From Hyphomonadaceae bacterium (GTDB lineage: Bacteria > Pseudomonadota > Alphaproteobacteria > Caulobacterales > Hyphomonadaceae): a stretch of 33,996 nucleotides of DNA. This document shows positions 4,251 through 12,392 of this stretch, piece after piece. Each line of letters opens with the position of its first letter. Position 1 is the stretch's first letter. Below the pieces are notes generated by a model. It saw only the letters and a list, made by a program, of their open reading frames with translations, searched no databases and was not told where the DNA came from. The DNA is taken from contig JALEGE010000037.1 of assembly GCA_022760335.1 (NCBI GenBank), forward strand, positions 1 through 33,996. Reading direction: 5' to 3'. A program made the position numbers and the translations under genes.

Positions 4251-5342
4251 ATGGACACGTCTGCGTCGACGCATTCTCTTCTACAAAGCCTGGACGCGCG
4301 CTCGCGCGATATCTTTCGCACGATTGTCGAATCCTATCTCAGCACCGGCGAGCCTGTGGGCTCGCGCACTCTGTCGCGTTCCGGCATCTCGCTGTCGCCG
4401 GCCTCGATCCGCAATGTGATGTCCGATCTCACAGAGCTCGGCCTGATCGATGCGCCGCATATTTCCGCAGGACGCCTGCCGACCCATGCGGGCTTGCGCC
4501 TTTTCGTCGACGGCTTTCTGGAAACCGGCGATCCTGGCGTCGAAGACAAGCTGGCGATCGAGCAGCGCCTTGGCGAGGCGGGCCGAGATCTGAAAAGCGT
4601 GCTCTCGGAAGCCTCAACCCTGCTGTCCGGCATCGCCCATGGCGCCGGACTCGTCTCTGCGCCCACGCGCGATGTGCCCGTGCGCCATGTGGAGTTTGTT
4701 CCGCTCTCAAACGGGGATGCGCTCTGCGTTTTGGTCACCGAGGATGGCGATGTCGAAAACCGCATCGTCAAGCTGCCCGCCGGCCTGCCCGCCACGGCCC
4801 TGATCGAGGCGAGCAATTATCTCAATGCCCGCATGAAGGGCCGGTCGCTCGCAGACGTGCAGGGCGAGGTACGCGACGAACTCACTGAACGCCGCGCCGC
4901 CCTGGACGAGGCCACGACCAGCCTGGTTGAACAGGGCCTGGCGGAATGGAGCGGGGCCAGCGATGCTCAGGAACCGCGCCTTATCGTGCGCGGTCACGCC
5001 AATCTTCTGGAAGATGCTGAAGCGGCCGAAGATCTCGACCGCGTCCGTCAGCTGTTCGATGTGCTGGAACGCCAGCAAAGCATGCTGGAAATCCTTGACC
5101 AAACGCGCATGGCCGAGGGCGTGCGCCTGTTCATCGGATCTGAAAACACGCTGTTTCCGCTTTCGGGTTCAAGCGTGATCGTCGCCCCCTATATGAATGC
5201 TCAACGACACGTCATCGGCGCGCTCGGGGTTATCGGCCCCACGCGCCTCAATTATGCAAGGGTGATCCCCATGGTCGACTACACCGCACGCGTGGTGAGC
5301 CGCATCCTGGGTGCGCCCACCACACAGGATGGACCGAGATGA
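4251..5342 (+). CDS. hrcA: heat-inducible transcription repressor HrcA
   Basis: 363 residues from the ATG at 4251. A TTG at 4212 would add 13 residues without family support, so I prefer the ATG. HrcA binds CIRCE operators and represses chaperone genes, with GroEL feedback. The N-terminal winged helix-turn-helix reads SPASIRNVMSDLTELGLID, followed by SAGRLPTHAGLRLFVDGF, the strongly conserved HrcA signature. The C-terminal half has the GAF-like dimerisation region (LFPLSGSSVIVAPY, GALGVIGPTRLNYARVIPMV). The stop overlaps the grpE start by 4 bases (ATGA). No CIRCE site lies upstream of this gene, so it does not appear to repress itself through that element. Confidence 0.96.
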   Translation: MDTSASTHSLLQSLDARSRDIFRTIVESYLSTGEPVGSRTLSRSGISLSPASIRNVMSDLTELGLIDAPHISAGRLPTHAGLRLFVDGFLETGDPGVEDKLAIEQRLGEAGRDLKSVLSEASTLLSGIAHGAGLVSAPTRDVPVRHVEFVPLSNGDALCVLVTEDGDVENRIVKLPAGLPATALIEASNYLNARMKGRSLADVQGEVRDELTERRAALDEATTSLVEQGLAEWSGASDAQEPRLIVRGHANLLEDAEAAEDLDRVRQLFDVLERQQSMLEILDQTRMAEGVRLFIGSENTLFPLSGSSVIVAPYMNAQRHVIGALGVIGPTRLNYARVIPMVDYTARVVSRILGAPTTQDGPR

Positions 5343-5905
5343 ACGAGGATGTGAAACCCGATCCCGAGATCGAGGAGATCTCAACAGACAATGCGGAATC
5401 CGGCGCGGAAACTGAGACAGAGACGGTCGACCCTGTCGCCGCACTTGAGGCCGAAAAGGCCGACTTGCAAGACAAGCTGCTGCGCGCCATCGCCGAGGTC
5501 GACAATGTCCGCAAGCGCGCCGCGCGCGAAACGGCAGATGCTCGTGTCTTCGCCATTGAGCGCTTTGCTGGTGACCTGCTCTCGGTGTCTGACAATCTCT
5601 CGCGCGCGATGGAAGCCCTTGGCAACGAGGAACGCGAGGCTCTGAGCGAGGCCGGGAAGAGCCTGATGGGCGGAATCGAGATGACCCAGAAGGAGCTGCA
5701 CACCGTGCTTGCCCGCCATGGCGTCACGGCCGTGGATGCCGCACCGGGGGCGAGCTTCGATCCCAATCTGCACCAGGCCGTCAGCCAGATCCCTTCAGAC
5801 CAGCCCTCGGGCACCATAGCGCAGTGTTTTCAGAATGGCTGGAAGATCGGTGACCGGACCCTGCGCGCGGCCATGGTGGCGGTCTCCACCGGCCCGGCCA
5901 GTTAG
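5339..5905 (+). CDS. grpE: nucleotide exchange factor GrpE
   Basis: 188 residues. This is the nucleotide exchange factor for DnaK, acting as a cytoplasmic dimer. An acidic N-terminal tail (about residues 1-30) is followed by a long coiled coil (AALEAEKADLQDKLLRAIAE, then DNVRKRAARE), and a C-terminal beta domain ending with the conserved FDPNLHQAVS and FQNGWKIGDRTLRAAMVAVS. It overlaps hrcA by 4 bases. The next gene, trpF, starts only 4 bases after its stop, so a heat-shock gene feeds straight into a tryptophan gene. Confidence 0.97.
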   Translation: MNEDVKPDPEIEEISTDNAESGAETETETVDPVAALEAEKADLQDKLLRAIAEVDNVRKRAARETADARVFAIERFAGDLLSVSDNLSRAMEALGNEEREALSEAGKSLMGGIEMTQKELHTVLARHGVTAVDAAPGASFDPNLHQAVSQIPSDQPSGTIAQCFQNGWKIGDRTLRAAMVAVSTGPAS

Positions 5906-5909
5906 GGCT

Positions 5910-6539
5910 TTGGCCAGGGTCAAGATCTGCGGGTTGAAAGACCCTGACATGGTCCGGCTCACGGCGGGCGCCGGGGCCGACTGGATCGGCTTTGTCTTTT
6001 TCGAACGCTCGCCGCGCGCCGTGACGACGGAGGCCGCAGAGACCCTGCTGCTCTCTGTGGGCAATGCCAGTCCTGTCGCCTTGCTGGTCGATCCGGATGA
6101 TGCGCTGGTTGACCGCGTGACCATGCTTGGGATCGGTGTGCTGCAACTACATGGCCAGGAAAGCCCGGCGCGGCTTGCCGAGATCAAGGCCCGCACGGGG
6201 GCGCAGATCTGGAAGGCAGTTGGCGTCCATGAGGCTGGGGATTTGCTCCCACTTGGCGATTTCACCGCCGCCGATCGCCTGCTTGTTGATGCAAAACCGC
6301 CCAGGGGCGCAGACCGTACCGGCGGGCATGGACATGCTTTTGACTGGTCGGTCCTGAACGGCTGGATAGCGCCCAAACCCTGGTTGCTTGCCGGCGGCCT
6401 GACACCGGAAAATGTCGCCGCGGCCATCGCCCAAACCAGCGCGACGGCTGTGGATGTCTCTTCCGGCGTGGAACGCGCACCCGGCCTGAAGGATGCCGCT
6501 CGGATCCGGGCCTTCATAAAGGCTGCAAAATCGTCATAA
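5910..6539 (+). CDS. trpF: phosphoribosylanthranilate isomerase
   Basis: 209 residues from a TTG start at 5910, 4 bases after the grpE stop. It catalyses the Amadori rearrangement of N-(5-phosphoribosyl)anthranilate to CdRP in tryptophan synthesis. The open frame runs back to 5835 inside grpE, but homology begins at RVKICGLKDPDMV, which carries the catalytic cysteine, so the TTG is the best start. The (beta/alpha)8 landmarks are LLVDAKPPRGADRTGGHGHAFDW-type phosphate-loop residues at mid-length, LAGGLTPENV, and the catalytic Asp in VDVSSGVE. Length is normal for the family. It is probably co-transcribed with hrcA-grpE. No leader peptide or trp attenuator precedes it. Confidence 0.95.
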   Translation: MARVKICGLKDPDMVRLTAGAGADWIGFVFFERSPRAVTTEAAETLLLSVGNASPVALLVDPDDALVDRVTMLGIGVLQLHGQESPARLAEIKARTGAQIWKAVGVHEAGDLLPLGDFTAADRLLVDAKPPRGADRTGGHGHAFDWSVLNGWIAPKPWLLAGGLTPENVAAAIAQTSATAVDVSSGVERAPGLKDAARIRAFIKAAKSS

Positions 6540-6599: not shown

Positions 6600-6983
6600 A
6601 TGTTTCCGGAACAATTGGTCACTATAGCCACCAAGCTGGTAGAATGCTGCAATTCGCGCCAGGAGGCTGAAGCACTGAACACATTGTATGACGAGGCCTG
6701 TGTGTCGGTGGAAGCTGCCGCCATGGGCGATGGCGGGCGCGAAGCGGTCGGTTTGGACGCTATTCGCGGCAAACATGACTGGTGGTTCGGCGCTCACGAG
6801 GTCCATTCTGCCAGCGCCGAAGGCCCGTACCTGTTCGGCGATGACAAATTCTCGCTGATCTTCGACATGGATGTCACCAACAAGGAGTCCGGCCAGCGCA
6901 TGCAGATGCGCGAGGTGGGCCTTTATACGGTGAAGGACGGCAAGATCATCCGTGAGGAGTTCTTCTATCCGCCGATGGGATAA
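6600..6983 (+). CDS. SnoaL-like / NTF2-fold protein
   Basis: 127 residues with a strong ribosome-binding site (AAGGAG, 7 bases before the ATG). The pattern fits a SnoaL-like cone-fold protein: an N-terminal helix (QLVTIATKLVECCN), then a strand-rich middle with DAIRGKHDWW, and a final sheet with EVGLYTVKDGKIIREEFFY. That ending, a strand with DGKI followed by a strand rich in E and F, is typical of SnoaL/DUF1486-type proteins. Such proteins are often small-molecule isomerases, cyclases or binding proteins of unknown substrate. It lies between trpF and trpB on the same strand. I see nothing that ties it to tryptophan metabolism beyond position, and the substrate is unknown. Confidence 0.75.
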   Translation: MFPEQLVTIATKLVECCNSRQEAEALNTLYDEACVSVEAAAMGDGGREAVGLDAIRGKHDWWFGAHEVHSASAEGPYLFGDDKFSLIFDMDVTNKESGQRMQMREVGLYTVKDGKIIREEFFYPPMG

Positions 6984-7061: not shown

Positions 7062-8273
7062 ATGGATGTAAGAAACACTTGGGACCAATGGCCCGACGAG
7101 CATGGCCGTTTCGGCGAGTTTGGCGGGCGCTATGTCGCCGAAACGCTGATGCCGTTGATCAAGGATCTTGAGGCTGAATACCGGACTGCACAACAGGATC
7201 CGGCCTTTGCTGCGGAGATGGAGGATCTCTGGACCCATTATGTTGGCCGGCCCAGCCCGCTCTATTTTGCAGAGCGCCTGACTGAACATTTTGGCGGCGC
7301 AAAAATCTATCTCAAGCGCGACGAGCTCAACCATACCGGTGCGCACAAGATCAATAATTGCCTCGGCCAGGTGCTGCTGGCGCGGCGCATGGGCAAGACC
7401 CGCATCATCGCCGAGACAGGCGCGGGCCAACATGGCGTGGCCACCGCCACGGTCTGCGCCCGTTTTGGTCTGCCCTGCGTGGTGTTCATGGGCGCCACCG
7501 ATGTCGAACGCCAGAAGCCAAACGTCTTCCGCATGCGCCTGCTCGGCGCGGAAATCGTGCCGGTTACATCAGGTACCGGCACGCTGAAGGATGCCATGAA
7601 CGAAGCCCTGCGCGACTGGGTGACGAATGTCGAGGACACATTCTATGTCATCGGCACTGCGGCCGGCCCGCATCCCTATCCTGAGCTGGTGCGCGACTTC
7701 CAGTCGGTGATCGGCCGTGAGGCACGGGCACAAATTCTGGAGCGCGAAGGCCGCCTGCCCGATGCGGTGATGGCCTGTATCGGCGGTGGCTCAAACGCGA
7801 TTGGCCTGTTCCATCCCTTTATCGAGGATGAAAGCGTACGATTGATCGGTGTGGAAGCGGCCGGCCATGGCATTGAGACCGGCCAGCATGCCGCCGCCCT
7901 GAATGGCGGCGAGCCTGGTATCCTGCACGGCAACAAGACATATCTCTTGCAGACCAAGGACGGCCAGATCCTGGATGCCCATTCCATCTCTGCCGGGCTC
8001 GACTATCCCGGCATTGGCCCGGAGCACGCTTTCCTGCGCGATACCGGCCGGGCCGAGTATCTCTCCTGCACAGACACCGAGGCGCTGGACGCTTTCCAGC
8101 TCTGCACACGTCTGGAAGGCATCATCCCGGCGCTGGAGCCATCCCACGCTCTCGCCCGTACTGGCGAAGTGGCGAAGGCGCTTGGCCCGGATGGTCTGAT
8201 GATCCTCAATATGTGCGGGCGCGGCGACAAGGACATCTTCTCCGTCGCAGACCATCTGGGCATGGAGATTTGA
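7062..8273 (+). CDS. trpB: tryptophan synthase beta chain
   Basis: 403 residues. This is a PLP enzyme that condenses indole with L-serine to give tryptophan, in an alpha2-beta2 complex with TrpA. The N-terminus [17 protein letters not shown] is typical. The PLP lysine is Lys96 in [12 protein letters not shown]. The phosphate-binding loop [10 protein letters not shown] and the C-terminal [12 protein letters not shown] are intact. Length is normal. Unlike the usual arrangement, trpA does not follow directly: a GH12-like lipoprotein gene begins 4 bases after the trpB stop. Confidence 0.98.
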
Positions 8274-8277
8274 GCGC

Positions 8278-9096
8278 ATGTTCCGGCAAGCTCTTCTGAC
8301 AAGTCTTGCCGGACTTTCGATCTCAGCCTGCGGTGCCCCCCAGACGTCTATAGCTGCAGACTCGCCTGGTGCGGATATCCTCGACTGTGAGGACTATGCC
8401 TCGGTGCCCACTGAAACCGGCATTCTTTATAACAATGTCTGGAACAAGCACGCTGCGGGTGACCAGCCGTTTCGTCAGTGCTTAATCCAGGAAACAGGCG
8501 GGCAACTCCGGATGGGCTGGCTCTGGGATTGGCCAAGCCGGCCCCGGGCCGTTTTCGGACAACCACAGATCAAGATTGGTGCCTCACCCTGGGCGCCAGA
8601 ACCTGCTTTCGGGACAGATCTTCCCGCCCAACTGAGCAGGCTGAACACCCTGAATCTGCGCCATCGTGTCAGCATATACTCTGATGGCAACTACAACCTG
8701 GTCACCACGCTGTGGCTTGGCGACGGTCCTGTCCCCACACAAAACGCCATACGCGCTGAAGTGATGATCTGGACACTGGCAACACCGGGTCAATTCAATC
8801 CGGGAGGGCGCCGGATTGGACAGGTAGAATCCGGGGGTGAGACCTGGCAGGTCTGGCTGGAACCGGAATGGACCGATCCATCCGGCATTCATGATACGCG
8901 TTGGACCTATCTGGCATTCCAGCGCGAGGCCACCTCTCCTGAAGCTGAAATCGATGTCCACGCCTTGCTTCAACACGGCATTCGCCAAGGATATCTTTCG
9001 GAAGACTGGTACGCTTATGATTTGGAACTGGGCATGGAAGTCATGGGCGGGCAGGGTCGGGCTTTTGTCGACCACTTCGAGATAGAAATCGACTAG
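8278..9096 (+). CDS. putative glycoside hydrolase family 12-like lipoprotein
   Basis: 272 residues. A short N-terminal hydrophobic stretch ends in ISAC (Cys18), a lipobox, so it is probably a membrane-anchored lipoprotein. The mature part matches the layout of GH12 endoglucanases/xyloglucanases: Cys37, YNNVWN (51-56) and Cys68 parallel the conserved disulfide around YxxxNNLWG. The segment AEVMIW carries the expected nucleophile Glu161. LGMEVMGGQG carries the expected acid/base Glu254, followed by the final strand VDHFEIEI. Both catalytic positions are present, so activity on a beta-glucan is plausible but untested. It starts 4 bases after trpB and precedes a VOC remnant and trpA, an unusual place for an exported glycanase. 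An inactive carbohydrate-binding relative is the main alternative. Confidence 0.72.
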   Translation: MFRQALLTSLAGLSISACGAPQTSIAADSPGADILDCEDYASVPTETGILYNNVWNKHAAGDQPFRQCLIQETGGQLRMGWLWDWPSRPRAVFGQPQIKIGASPWAPEPAFGTDLPAQLSRLNTLNLRHRVSIYSDGNYNLVTTLWLGDGPVPTQNAIRAEVMIWTLATPGQFNPGGRRIGQVESGGETWQVWLEPEWTDPSGIHDTRWTYLAFQREATSPEAEIDVHALLQHGIRQGYLSEDWYAYDLELGMEVMGGQGRAFVDHFEIEID

Positions 9097-9099
9097 ACA

Positions 9100-9267
9100 A
9101 TGATCTCCCACATCACGCTCGGCACGACAGACAAGGCGCGCGCGGACGCCTTTTATGCACCAATCATGGACGCGTTGGGTCTGCCTCGGCGCAACATTCT
9201 TGCCCTGCCTATAGCCTATGCGAATGCAGACTTTACGCGCTGGGTAGTGGACAGTTGCGGTGAATAG
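9100..9267 (+). pseudogene. truncated VOC (glyoxalase/bleomycin-resistance) protein, N-terminal remnant
   Basis: A 55-codon frame starts 3 bases after the GH12-like stop. The first 31 residues (beginning MISHITLGTTDKARADAFYA and ending in LGLPRR) match the first beta-alpha unit of VOC-superfamily proteins, which are normally about 120-130 residues. The remaining 24 residues do not look like the family, and a stop follows. No ribosome-binding site is evident, so any translation would depend on coupling to the upstream gene. It reads as the stub of a gene lost by deletion just upstream of trpA. It shares about half its first 31 residues with the fragment at 24114-24260. Confidence 0.7.
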
Positions 9268-9284: not shown

Positions 9285-10109
9285 ATGCCCACATCCCGCA
9301 TTTCCGCCCGTTTCGAAAAAGCCCGCACTGAGAGCCGTGCTGCGCTGGTCGCCTATCTCATGGCCGGTGATCCGGACCTGGAAACGAGCTTCCAGGCCAT
9401 GTGCGCCCTGCGCGACAATGGCGCTGACATTATCGAACTCGGCGCCCCGTTCACCGACCCGATGGCTGACGGTCCCTCCATCCAGTTGGCCGGCCAACGA
9501 AGCCTGGCCGCCGGCACGACACTTACTGATGTGCTCGCCCTTGCCCGTCGCTTCCGTGAAAGCGACCAGGACACGCCGCTGATCCTGATGGGTTATGCCA
9601 ATCCGGTCCACCATATGGGCTATGGCGCCTTCGCCGATGCGGCCGCGACGGCCGGTATCGACGGCGTGATCAGTGTGGACCTGCCGCCGGAAGAAGATGC
9701 GCCCTTGCGCACACCACTGTCTGCGCACGGCATTTCCGTGATCCGCCTGGCCACACCGACAACCACGCCAGAGCGGATGAAGACCGTGGCCGAAGGCGCT
9801 TCGGGCTTTCTCTATTTCGTCTCGGTGACGGGCGTGACCGGCGCTGGCGCGGCCGATCCGGCAGCGATTGCGCCAAAGATCGAGATGGCCCGGACTATCT
9901 CCGGATTGCCCGTCTGTGTCGGCTTTGGCGTGCGCACAGGCGATCAGGCCGCCGAGATGGCAAAGATCGCCGACGGGGTTGTGGTTGGCTCGGCTTTCGT
10001 AGACCATGCGGCCAAGGCTCTGGAATCGGGGCGCTTTGCAGACGCACCTGTGGGGATGGGCCGTCTGGCAAGAGAACTCAGTGAGGCTATCGCGGGGGCG
10101 GCCTCTTAG
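9285..10109 (+). CDS. trpA: tryptophan synthase alpha chain
   Basis: 274 residues. It cleaves indole-3-glycerol phosphate to indole and glyceraldehyde 3-phosphate and channels indole to TrpB. The catalytic Glu51 and Asp62 sit in IIELGAPFTDPMADGPSIQ. The flexible loop region (YFVSVTGVTGA) and the phosphate-binding GFGVRTGDQA and VGSAFVDH segments are present. Length is normal. It is separated from trpB by about 1 kb holding the GH12-like gene and a VOC remnant, and is followed by accD after about 43 bases. Confidence 0.98.
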   Translation: MPTSRISARFEKARTESRAALVAYLMAGDPDLETSFQAMCALRDNGADIIELGAPFTDPMADGPSIQLAGQRSLAAGTTLTDVLALARRFRESDQDTPLILMGYANPVHHMGYGAFADAAATAGIDGVISVDLPPEEDAPLRTPLSAHGISVIRLATPTTTPERMKTVAEGASGFLYFVSVTGVTGAGAADPAAIAPKIEMARTISGLPVCVGFGVRTGDQAAEMAKIADGVVVGSAFVDHAAKALESGRFADAPVGMGRLARELSEAIAGAAS

Positions 10110-10152: not shown

Positions 10153-11145
10153 ATGAACTGGCTTACCAATTTTCGCCCGCCTGGACTGAAATCCTGGCTC
10201 AACAAGAAAGATACGCCGGAAAACCTCTGGGTGAAATGTCCCACCAGCGGTGAGCTGGTCTACAAGAGCGATCTTGAGGAGAGCTGGTACGTCACTCCCG
10301 CCGGAGCGCATTTGCGCATCTCACCGCGCCGGCGTTTCCGCCTGCTGTTTGATGATGAGCGCTGGGAGCCGATTGCGCTGCCCGAAGTGCCGGCCGATCC
10401 ACTGAAATTCCGCGATGACAAGCCTTATCCGTCGCGTTTGAAATCCGCACGCGCCAAGATTTCCCACCGGGAAAAGGAAGAAACAGTCGAGGGTGGCGCA
10501 CCGATTTCCCAGGATGACTGTATGGCGGCCGCCTTCGGCAAGATCGAAGGCACCCCAACGGTCGTGCTGGTCCAGGATTTCGCCTTTATGGGTGGCTCAT
10601 TGGGCATGGCCGCCGGCGAGGCCTTCATTGCCGCCGCGCAGCTGGCTGTGGCGCGTAAGGCCGCCTTCGTGGTGTGTACTGCCTCTGGCGGCGCGCGCAT
10701 GCAGGAAGGCACACTCAGCCTGATGCAGATGCCGCGCACCACGCTGGCGATTGATGAGGTCCAGGAAGCCGGGTTGCCCTATATCGTGATCCTCACCGAC
10801 CCGACCTCGGGTGGGGTTTCGGCCTCTTATGCCATGCTTGGCGACGTCCATATCGCCGAGCCCGGCGCGATGATCGCCTTTTCCGGCCCACGCGTGATTG
10901 AGCAGACCATCCGCGAGAAACTGCCTGATGGCTTCCAGCGTTCGGAAGTCCTGCGCGAAAAGGGCCAGGTGGATATCGTTTCTCATCGCCACGACCTGAA
11001 AGCGACACTGGCGCGCGTCCTGTTTCACCTGATGCCCAAACTGCGCCGCGCCAGCGACCGGGAAGTGCCGAATGTCGCGGCTCCCGCCGTGGATGTTGAG
11101 CCCGGCGCATCGTCAGGAACGGAGCCGAGTGAGGCCGACGATTGA
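10153..11145 (+). CDS. accD: acetyl-CoA carboxylase carboxyltransferase subunit beta
   Basis: 330 residues. AccD joins AccA to move CO2 from carboxybiotin to acetyl-CoA, making malonyl-CoA for fatty acid synthesis. The crotonase-like core is clear: VVLVQDFAFMGGSLGMAAGE, TASGGARMQEGTLSLMQM, LTDPTSGGVSASYA and FSGPRVIEQTI. The N-terminal zinc ribbon is degenerate: Cys29 is kept, but the other three cysteine positions are Ser32, Thr48 and Gly51. From memory this is common in alphaproteobacterial AccD, so the gene is not damaged. The stop overlaps the TTG start of folC (TTGA). Confidence 0.97.
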   Translation: MNWLTNFRPPGLKSWLNKKDTPENLWVKCPTSGELVYKSDLEESWYVTPAGAHLRISPRRRFRLLFDDERWEPIALPEVPADPLKFRDDKPYPSRLKSARAKISHREKEETVEGGAPISQDDCMAAAFGKIEGTPTVVLVQDFAFMGGSLGMAAGEAFIAAAQLAVARKAAFVVCTASGGARMQEGTLSLMQMPRTTLAIDEVQEAGLPYIVILTDPTSGGVSASYAMLGDVHIAEPGAMIAFSGPRVIEQTIREKLPDGFQRSEVLREKGQVDIVSHRHDLKATLARVLFHLMPKLRRASDREVPNVAAPAVDVEPGASSGTEPSEADD

Positions 11146-12392
11146 GCGATCCAGCCTCGCGGCTGTCTGCCGCGCTCGCCGCCTTGCAGGGACACTACCC
11201 CCGCGAGATTGAACTTTCCCTTGGCCGTATCGAATACTTGCTTGAGCGGCTCGGCAATCCACAGCACAGCCTGCCGCCAACCATTCATGTCGCGGGCACC
11301 AATGGCAAGGGATCAACTTGCGCGTTCCTGCGTGCCATGGCCGAGGCTGCCGGGCTCAGCGTGCATGTCTTCACCTCGCCGCATCTGGTGCGCTTCAATG
11401 AGCGCGTGCGCCTGGCCGGAAACCTGATCAGTGATACAGCCTTCGCCGAAGCGCTGGAGCGCGTGCGCAAGGCTCTCAATACCGATCCGATCACACATTT
11501 CGAGGCCACCACCGCTGCGGCTTTGCTGGCTTTCAGCGAAACTCCAGCCGATCTGCTGATCCTGGAAGTCGGTCTTGGCGGACGCTATGACGCAACCAAT
11601 GTGATCCCCCCACCTGCCGTGGCCGTGATCTCCCCGGTCGATTATGATCACAAGCAATTCCTCGGCGAAGATCTGAAAGGCATCGCGGGTGAGAAGGCCG
11701 GCATCATCAAACCCGGGACGCCCGTGGTGACAGCCATCCAGGCGCCCGAAGTGAGCGGCGTGATCGAGGAGACCGCCAAGCGCCAGGGCGCACCGCTGCA
11801 CCCTCTCGCCATCAGTGAGATCTTCGAAATGCCCGAAGACCTGGCCCTGCTCGGCGGCCACCAGCGGGCCAATGCAGCGCTCGCGGCCAAAGCCCTGAAG
11901 CTGTGGGGCAACCCGGCAATCACGCAAACCGCAATATGGCAAGGTGCACGCAGGGCCGTCTGGCCTGCGCGGATGCAGCGCCTGGCGCCAGGACCTGTCA
12001 CGGCGGCAGCCAGCGAGGCAGATGTCTGGCTGGATGGCGGACACAATCCCCATGCGGCACGTGCCGTGGCAGACCTGCTCAGCAACATGTCCGGCCAGAC
12101 CCATCTCGTCACCGCCATGATGGCGAGCAAGGATGCAAATGGCTTTTTCGATAGCTTCCGAAATGAAGCGCCAAAGGTCTTCACATGCCCCAATAGCGAA
12201 GGCCACCATGGCGCCGAACCGGCCGAATTGGCCGCGCAGGCTCGCGCTGCAGGACTGCAAGCCGAAGCCTTTGCCGATTTCGACGCCGCGCTGGCAGCCG
12301 CCGCTGCAGATAGCCCCGCGCGCATTCTGATCTGCGGCTCGCTTTACCTCGCCGGAGATGTGCTGCGGGCCAATCTGGAAATTCCTGAATAA
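11142..12392 (+). CDS. folC: bifunctional folylpolyglutamate synthase / dihydrofolate synthase
   Basis: 416 residues from a TTG start that overlaps the accD stop. It adds glutamate to dihydropteroate and to tetrahydrofolates, using ATP. The P-loop GTNGKGST is at 52-59, followed by FTSPHLVRFNERVRL. LEVGLGGRYDATNVI and SPVDYDHKQFLG are Mur-ligase/FolC signatures, and the C-terminal ligase domain contains DVWLDGGHNPHAA. Length is normal. The accD-folC pairing is common in Proteobacteria. Translation is probably coupled to accD. Confidence 0.97.
   Translation: MSDPASRLSAALAALQGHYPREIELSLGRIEYLLERLGNPQHSLPPTIHVAGTNGKGSTCAFLRAMAEAAGLSVHVFTSPHLVRFNERVRLAGNLISDTAFAEALERVRKALNTDPITHFEATTAAALLAFSETPADLLILEVGLGGRYDATNVIPPPAVAVISPVDYDHKQFLGEDLKGIAGEKAGIIKPGTPVVTAIQAPEVSGVIEETAKRQGAPLHPLAISEIFEMPEDLALLGGHQRANAALAAKALKLWGNPAITQTAIWQGARRAVWPARMQRLAPGPVTAAASEADVWLDGGHNPHAARAVADLLSNMSGQTHLVTAMMASKDANGFFDSFRNEAPKVFTCPNSEGHHGAEPAELAAQARAAGLQAEAFADFDAALAAAAADSPARILICGSLYLAGDVLRANLEIPE

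Follow-up and report, generated by a model that had tools for sequence, protein, structure and literature searches.

The window analysed here, a stretch of 33,996 nucleotides from a genome of the Hyphomonadaceae, carries between trpB and trpA a gene whose product is assigned to GH12 by its sequence family and predicted fold. We consider it likely that this gene, for a lipid-anchored beta-glucan hydrolase of GH12 fold, was acquired horizontally and inserted singly behind trpB, in a slot that takes up cargo throughout the host family, and that a deletion left a scar beside it. A strange gene pairing thus becomes a readable history of gene gain and loss, with a slot, a sister species that has the earlier content, and a scar.

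The genes lie on the + strand in the order grpE, trpF, a SnoaL-like gene, trpB, the GH12 gene, a 55-codon ORF, trpA, accD and folC. The features used below are the following:

5835-6539, + strand: trpF, phosphoribosylanthranilate isomerase, start uncertain (PF00697, 134.6 bits)
6600-6983, + strand: gene for a SnoaL-like protein, between trpF and trpB (PF20409, 60.9 bits; synteny)
7062-8273, + strand: trpB (TIGR00263, 644 bits)
8264-8267, + strand: GGAG within the final trpB codons, 10 nt upstream of the GH12 start codon ATG and a candidate ribosome-binding site for that gene
8278-9096, + strand: GH12-family lipoprotein gene, 272 aa (PF01670 above cut-off; fold match to 2jen)
8320-8331, + strand: lipobox I15-S16-A17-C18 (by motif; the Cys is shared by 13 of the 15 other clade members)
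8707-8709, + strand: Thr144 codon, at the auxiliary Asp position of the other GH12 proteins compared (by alignment; Asp according to PMC3597598)
8758-8760, + strand: Glu161 codon, expected nucleophile (AEVMIW; aligned with GH12 structures)
9037-9039, + strand: Glu254 codon, expected acid/base (LGMEVM; aligned with GH12 structures)
9100-9195, + strand: what is left of a VOC/glyoxalase-family gene, its initial 32 codons (81% identity with the complete VOC gene of the sister species)
9196-9267, + strand: what is left of cutA, its final ~23 codons with the stop, joined in frame to the VOC remnant (74% identical to the CutA end of the sister species)
9285-10109, + strand: trpA (TIGR00262, 237 bits)
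10153-11145, + strand: accD-type carboxyltransferase gene (PF01039)
11142-12392, + strand: folC-type Mur ligase family gene (PF02875, PF08245)

Family, predicted fold and surroundings of the GH12 protein

The initial annotation had described a GH12-like lipoprotein beginning 4 nt past the trpB stop at 8273, and the ORF, the lipobox and the cysteine pair C37/C68 around YNNVWN were all confirmed. Residues 52-271 matched PF01670 with 55.3 bits (E 1.3e-14), the curated cut-off being 27 bits. Among solved chains, the closest were 2jem and 2jen (profile search, E 4e-37), both of the Bacillus licheniformis xyloglucanase. An AlphaFold2 model computed from this protein and 19 relatives (pLDDT 89.2) showed the beta-jelly-roll of GH12. 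Its top fold matches were all GH12 proteins, the best being 2jen (Z 30.4, rmsd 2.0 A, 228 residues), and GH11 xylanases ranked lower (Z about 21). The two catalytic glutamates proposed earlier, Glu161 and Glu254, lie on model strands 158-168 and 248-271, respectively; they align with those of GH12 structures and are invariant, as are C37 and C68, across the 20 aligned sequences. The N-terminus, MFRQALLTSLAGLSISAC18G, satisfies the lipobox pattern [LVI][ASTVI][GAS]C by motif match, and its +2 residue is Gly and not Asp, that is, without the classic inner-membrane retention signal. The protein is predicted to be exported and is probably anchored in the outer membrane.

The flanking genes were also as annotated, with clear TIGR00263 and TIGR00262 matches for trpB and trpA. 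The GH12 gene is a non-trp gene set between trpB and trpA, which run in the same direction, and the order trpF-trpB-trpA-accD-folC is otherwise conserved. With trpF, the SnoaL-like gene, trpB, trpA, accD and folC as neighbours, the locus is not a polysaccharide utilisation locus. Neither promoter nor terminator scans detected a + strand site in the trpB-trpA interval; the terminator numbers were near chance. The SnoaL-like gene is 83% identical in the sister species and also precedes trpB in three genomes from a different genus of the host family; the trpF-trpB junction therefore takes cargo as well.

The trpB-trpA slot and the deletion scar

The trpB-trpA spacing was surveyed in 60 of about 100 loci of the Hyphomonadaceae, with ORFs called mechanically. 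In 55 of these 60 loci the gap measured 317 nt or more (median 728), so that the 1011 nt of the window are ordinary within the family. CutA was encoded between trpB and trpA in 48 of the 60, the scar described below being counted. VOC and GFA genes recurred in the slot, together with unrelated genes, several of them with lipobox signals. The two trp genes stood side by side in five loci of the same order but of other families, and the split of trpB from trpA is therefore a trait of the host family. The earlier premise that trpB and trpA usually adjoin, which had made the position of the GH12 gene seem unexpected, holds for those five loci but fails in the Hyphomonadaceae, where a wide gap is normal. 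The surprise largely dissolves because the two genes normally stand apart there, and since the slot routinely carries unrelated genes, the odd position can be explained without any connection of tryptophan to sugars. Tight adjacency is evidently not needed in a family that as a whole keeps the subunit genes apart. No literature turned up on cutA or on cargo genes in the trp operons of the Hyphomonadaceae, and what resembled GH12 in two marine papers proved to be other families such as GH127 and GH129.

Two other loci illustrate the range of cargo. One (L071, genome G034) has genes for a cytochrome c' lipoprotein and a cytochrome b561 between trpB and cutA. In another (L056, genome G005), VOC and cutA are separated by a reverse-strand ORF of 422 aa whose product resembles a cyclopropane fatty acid synthase, and slot cargo can therefore face against the operon.

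In the sister species (G088), whose trpB is 96% identical to that of the window, trpB is followed by a VOC/glyoxalase-family gene, then by a GFA-family gene, cutA and trpA. Positions 9100-9267 of the window form a 55-codon ORF, missed by the initial annotation, that reads in a single frame through the start of the sister VOC gene and then the end of the sister cutA. This comparison of the two sequences shows it to be a deletion scar. The stretch directly before trpA was spared by the deletion and is nearly identical in both species. We rejected relocated copies of the missing genes: the genome of the window (215 contigs, 3.5 Mb, 97% complete, reported contamination 0.55%) gave no CutA1 match, and identity reaches only 44% for its nearest other VOC protein and 42% for its nearest other GFA protein, so the three genes have not simply moved.

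Origin, relatives and active site

GH12 was found in one of 105 genomes of the host family, in four of 398 genomes of the order, and in one of 385 genomes of a class sample, again that of the window; the trpB-GH12-trpA arrangement is known from this genome only. The third-position GC of the gene (0.597) was the lowest among the full-length genes measured, the others ranging from 0.64 to 0.81. It looks horizontally acquired, and its rarity in the host family, its low third-position GC and its absence from the sister species support the recent insertion that the initial annotation had offered as one possibility.

Searching with the single protein returned no loci, and searching with a four-member alignment returned 23. 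The close relatives, 33-44% identical (tblastn), belong to marine Pseudomonadota of the genera Erythrobacter, Sphingorhabdus, Marinifaba, Marinimicrobium and Paraglaciecola, plus Parvularcula dongshanensis, and are mostly lipoproteins. The tree separated this marine clade from relatives in Chlorobiaceae with full support, although the placement of the window protein inside the clade was not firm. We recovered no relatives in phage records or viral contigs, and the plasmid collection held only GH12 genes of 23-29% identity. Trp genes were near none of the 23 loci. Immediately before the GH12 gene stood nusG (three Erythrobacter loci), tamB (Sphingorhabdus), pgpA (three Paraglaciecola loci) or lgt (Marinimicrobium); the other loci had a HAD, GNAT, alpha/beta hydrolase or LysR gene or an unnamed one there. 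This upstream gene was co-directional in 14 of the 15 loci read in detail, with a gap of 3 to 12 nt in six; this is a plain count, over upstream genes that are only partly independent. Co-directional neighbours are common in bacteria. The GH12 gene looks like a passenger that would rely on the transcription of its upstream neighbour.

Some of these loci deserve separate mention. GH12 comes straight after core genes in four of them, trailing tamB by 12 nt in L107 (4896-5735) and nusG by 5-8 nt in L105, L106 and L108 (~4930-5800). Two Chlorobiaceae loci (L123, L124) have tandem GH12-like genes preceded by recurring ORFs of ~424, 146 and 225-234 aa. In Gilvimarinus, Microbulbifer and a Paraglaciecola MAG (L119, L120 and L116), the GH12 match either spreads across two frames or has no single open frame; these cases may be pseudogenes or reflect errors of sequencing.

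Besides the two glutamates, GH12 has been described as having a strictly conserved Asp that forms a hydrogen bond with the nucleophile (PMC3597598). In the window protein, Thr144 stands in place of this Asp, 17 residues ahead of the nucleophile, the same spacing as for the auxiliary Asp elsewhere. In the alignment, this position is Thr or Ser in every one of the 16 marine clade members, whereas the Asp is kept by the four Chlorobiaceae relatives and by those solved GH12 chains that appear in the alignments. This replacement across a whole clade, read from aligned sequences, is new here and is the one odd feature of the gene. The auxiliary Asp is no criterion of PF01670 membership by sequence, the class defined by the full triad being narrower than PF01670; the assignment to the family by sequence and fold thus stands, and the claim that the protein operates with the usual triad does not. 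Loss of the Asp may weaken or alter catalysis. The clade offers a test of whether this residue is truly essential. It is conceivable, if rather doubtful, that the lipoprotein clade represents a catalytically distinct branch of GH12 (e.g. transglycosylases, or enzymes acting on an unlisted marine glucan) and at the same time a promoter-less passenger that settles immediately after housekeeping genes with constitutive expression. The trpB-trpA slot would then be one site of this kind.

Proposed scenario, alternatives and known systems

We propose that a GH12-fold gene of the endo-beta-1,4-glucanase or xyloglucanase type was inserted alone, directly behind trpB. In the same event or later, a deletion would have taken most of the VOC-GFA-cutA block, leaving the 55-codon in-frame scar before trpA. 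Read-through of the trpFB(A) transcript would supply its mRNA, and translation would rely on the GGAG at the end of trpB, which would give steady, low expression. The lipoprotein would cut external beta-1,4-linked glucan or xyloglucan, and GH3 enzymes, genes for which are present in the genome, could finish the products. As trpA would have kept its own start region, its balance with trpB would be maintained, as in the many relatives with a split trpB-trpA. The protein is most likely a lipid-anchored hydrolase of beta-1,4-glucan or xyloglucan made by read-through of the trp transcript, and no role in tryptophan synthesis is supported. A BcsZ-like role in the making of bacterial cellulose is not favoured because no BcsB was found in the genome.

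The initial annotation had also raised a link between surface glycans and the operon, in which the gene would be kept there because the supply of tryptophan or indole is coupled to the processing of surface glycans, for example in attachment. The 4-nt spacing on the same strand, the intact reading frame and the conserved catalytic glutamates speak for such coupling. We nevertheless regard it as very improbable: the gene is missing from the 104 other genomes of the host family, the slot holds many unrelated genes, and the relatives trail nusG, tamB, pgpA, lgt, a LysR gene and others that differ from clade to clade. Since these relatives sit behind unrelated genes and never near trp, no trp-glycan link is supported. 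An artefact of assembly or contamination that placed a foreign gene in the operon can be given hardly any weight. The draft state of the genome, the restriction of GH12 to a single genome and the low third-position GC would fit, but the gene lies inside a 34-kb contig of an assembly with little reported contamination, and it is flanked by trpB on one side and by the VOC/cutA scar and trpA on the other, collinear with the sister species.

The remaining alternative concerns the activity of the protein. The uniform Thr/Ser, set against the Asp of the Chlorobiaceae proteins and of the aligned GH12 structures and against its described strict conservation and hydrogen bond to the nucleophile (PMC3597598), could mean that the clade has lost or changed its hydrolase function and consists of transglycosylases, very slow hydrolases or glucan-binding lipoproteins. 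We think this unlikely, as both catalytic glutamates, the NN-W-N motif and many aromatic residues are invariant, as expected for an enzyme, and the clade members come from marine genera. Several of these genera are known for polysaccharide degradation. The insertion of a beta-glucan hydrolase gene into the cargo slot, followed or accompanied by the deletion, is our preferred reading.

Among known systems, the marine lipoprotein clade resembles the window protein in its usual lipobox, the same Cys pair and the Thr or Ser at the auxiliary Asp position, but differs in its gene neighbours (nusG, tamB, lgt, pgpA and others, never trp). The best match in both sequence and fold is XG12 of B. licheniformis (2jem, 2jen), at about 24% identity: E161 aligns with the nucleophile position of XG12 (Q in 2jem, A in 2jen) and E254 with its acid/base Glu. 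XG12 differs in having the auxiliary Asp (YDIWL) at the position of Thr144, and no trp operon is known to contain it. Non-trp genes lying between trpB and trpA, as in the window, are known from Burkholderia, Flavobacterium and a Sargasso Sea contig, and have been discussed as possible morons (PMC2395257). Those insertions are genes of unknown function, whereas the cargo of the window is identified, and, unlike them, the slot of the Hyphomonadaceae is a family-wide habit with cutA as its usual resident.
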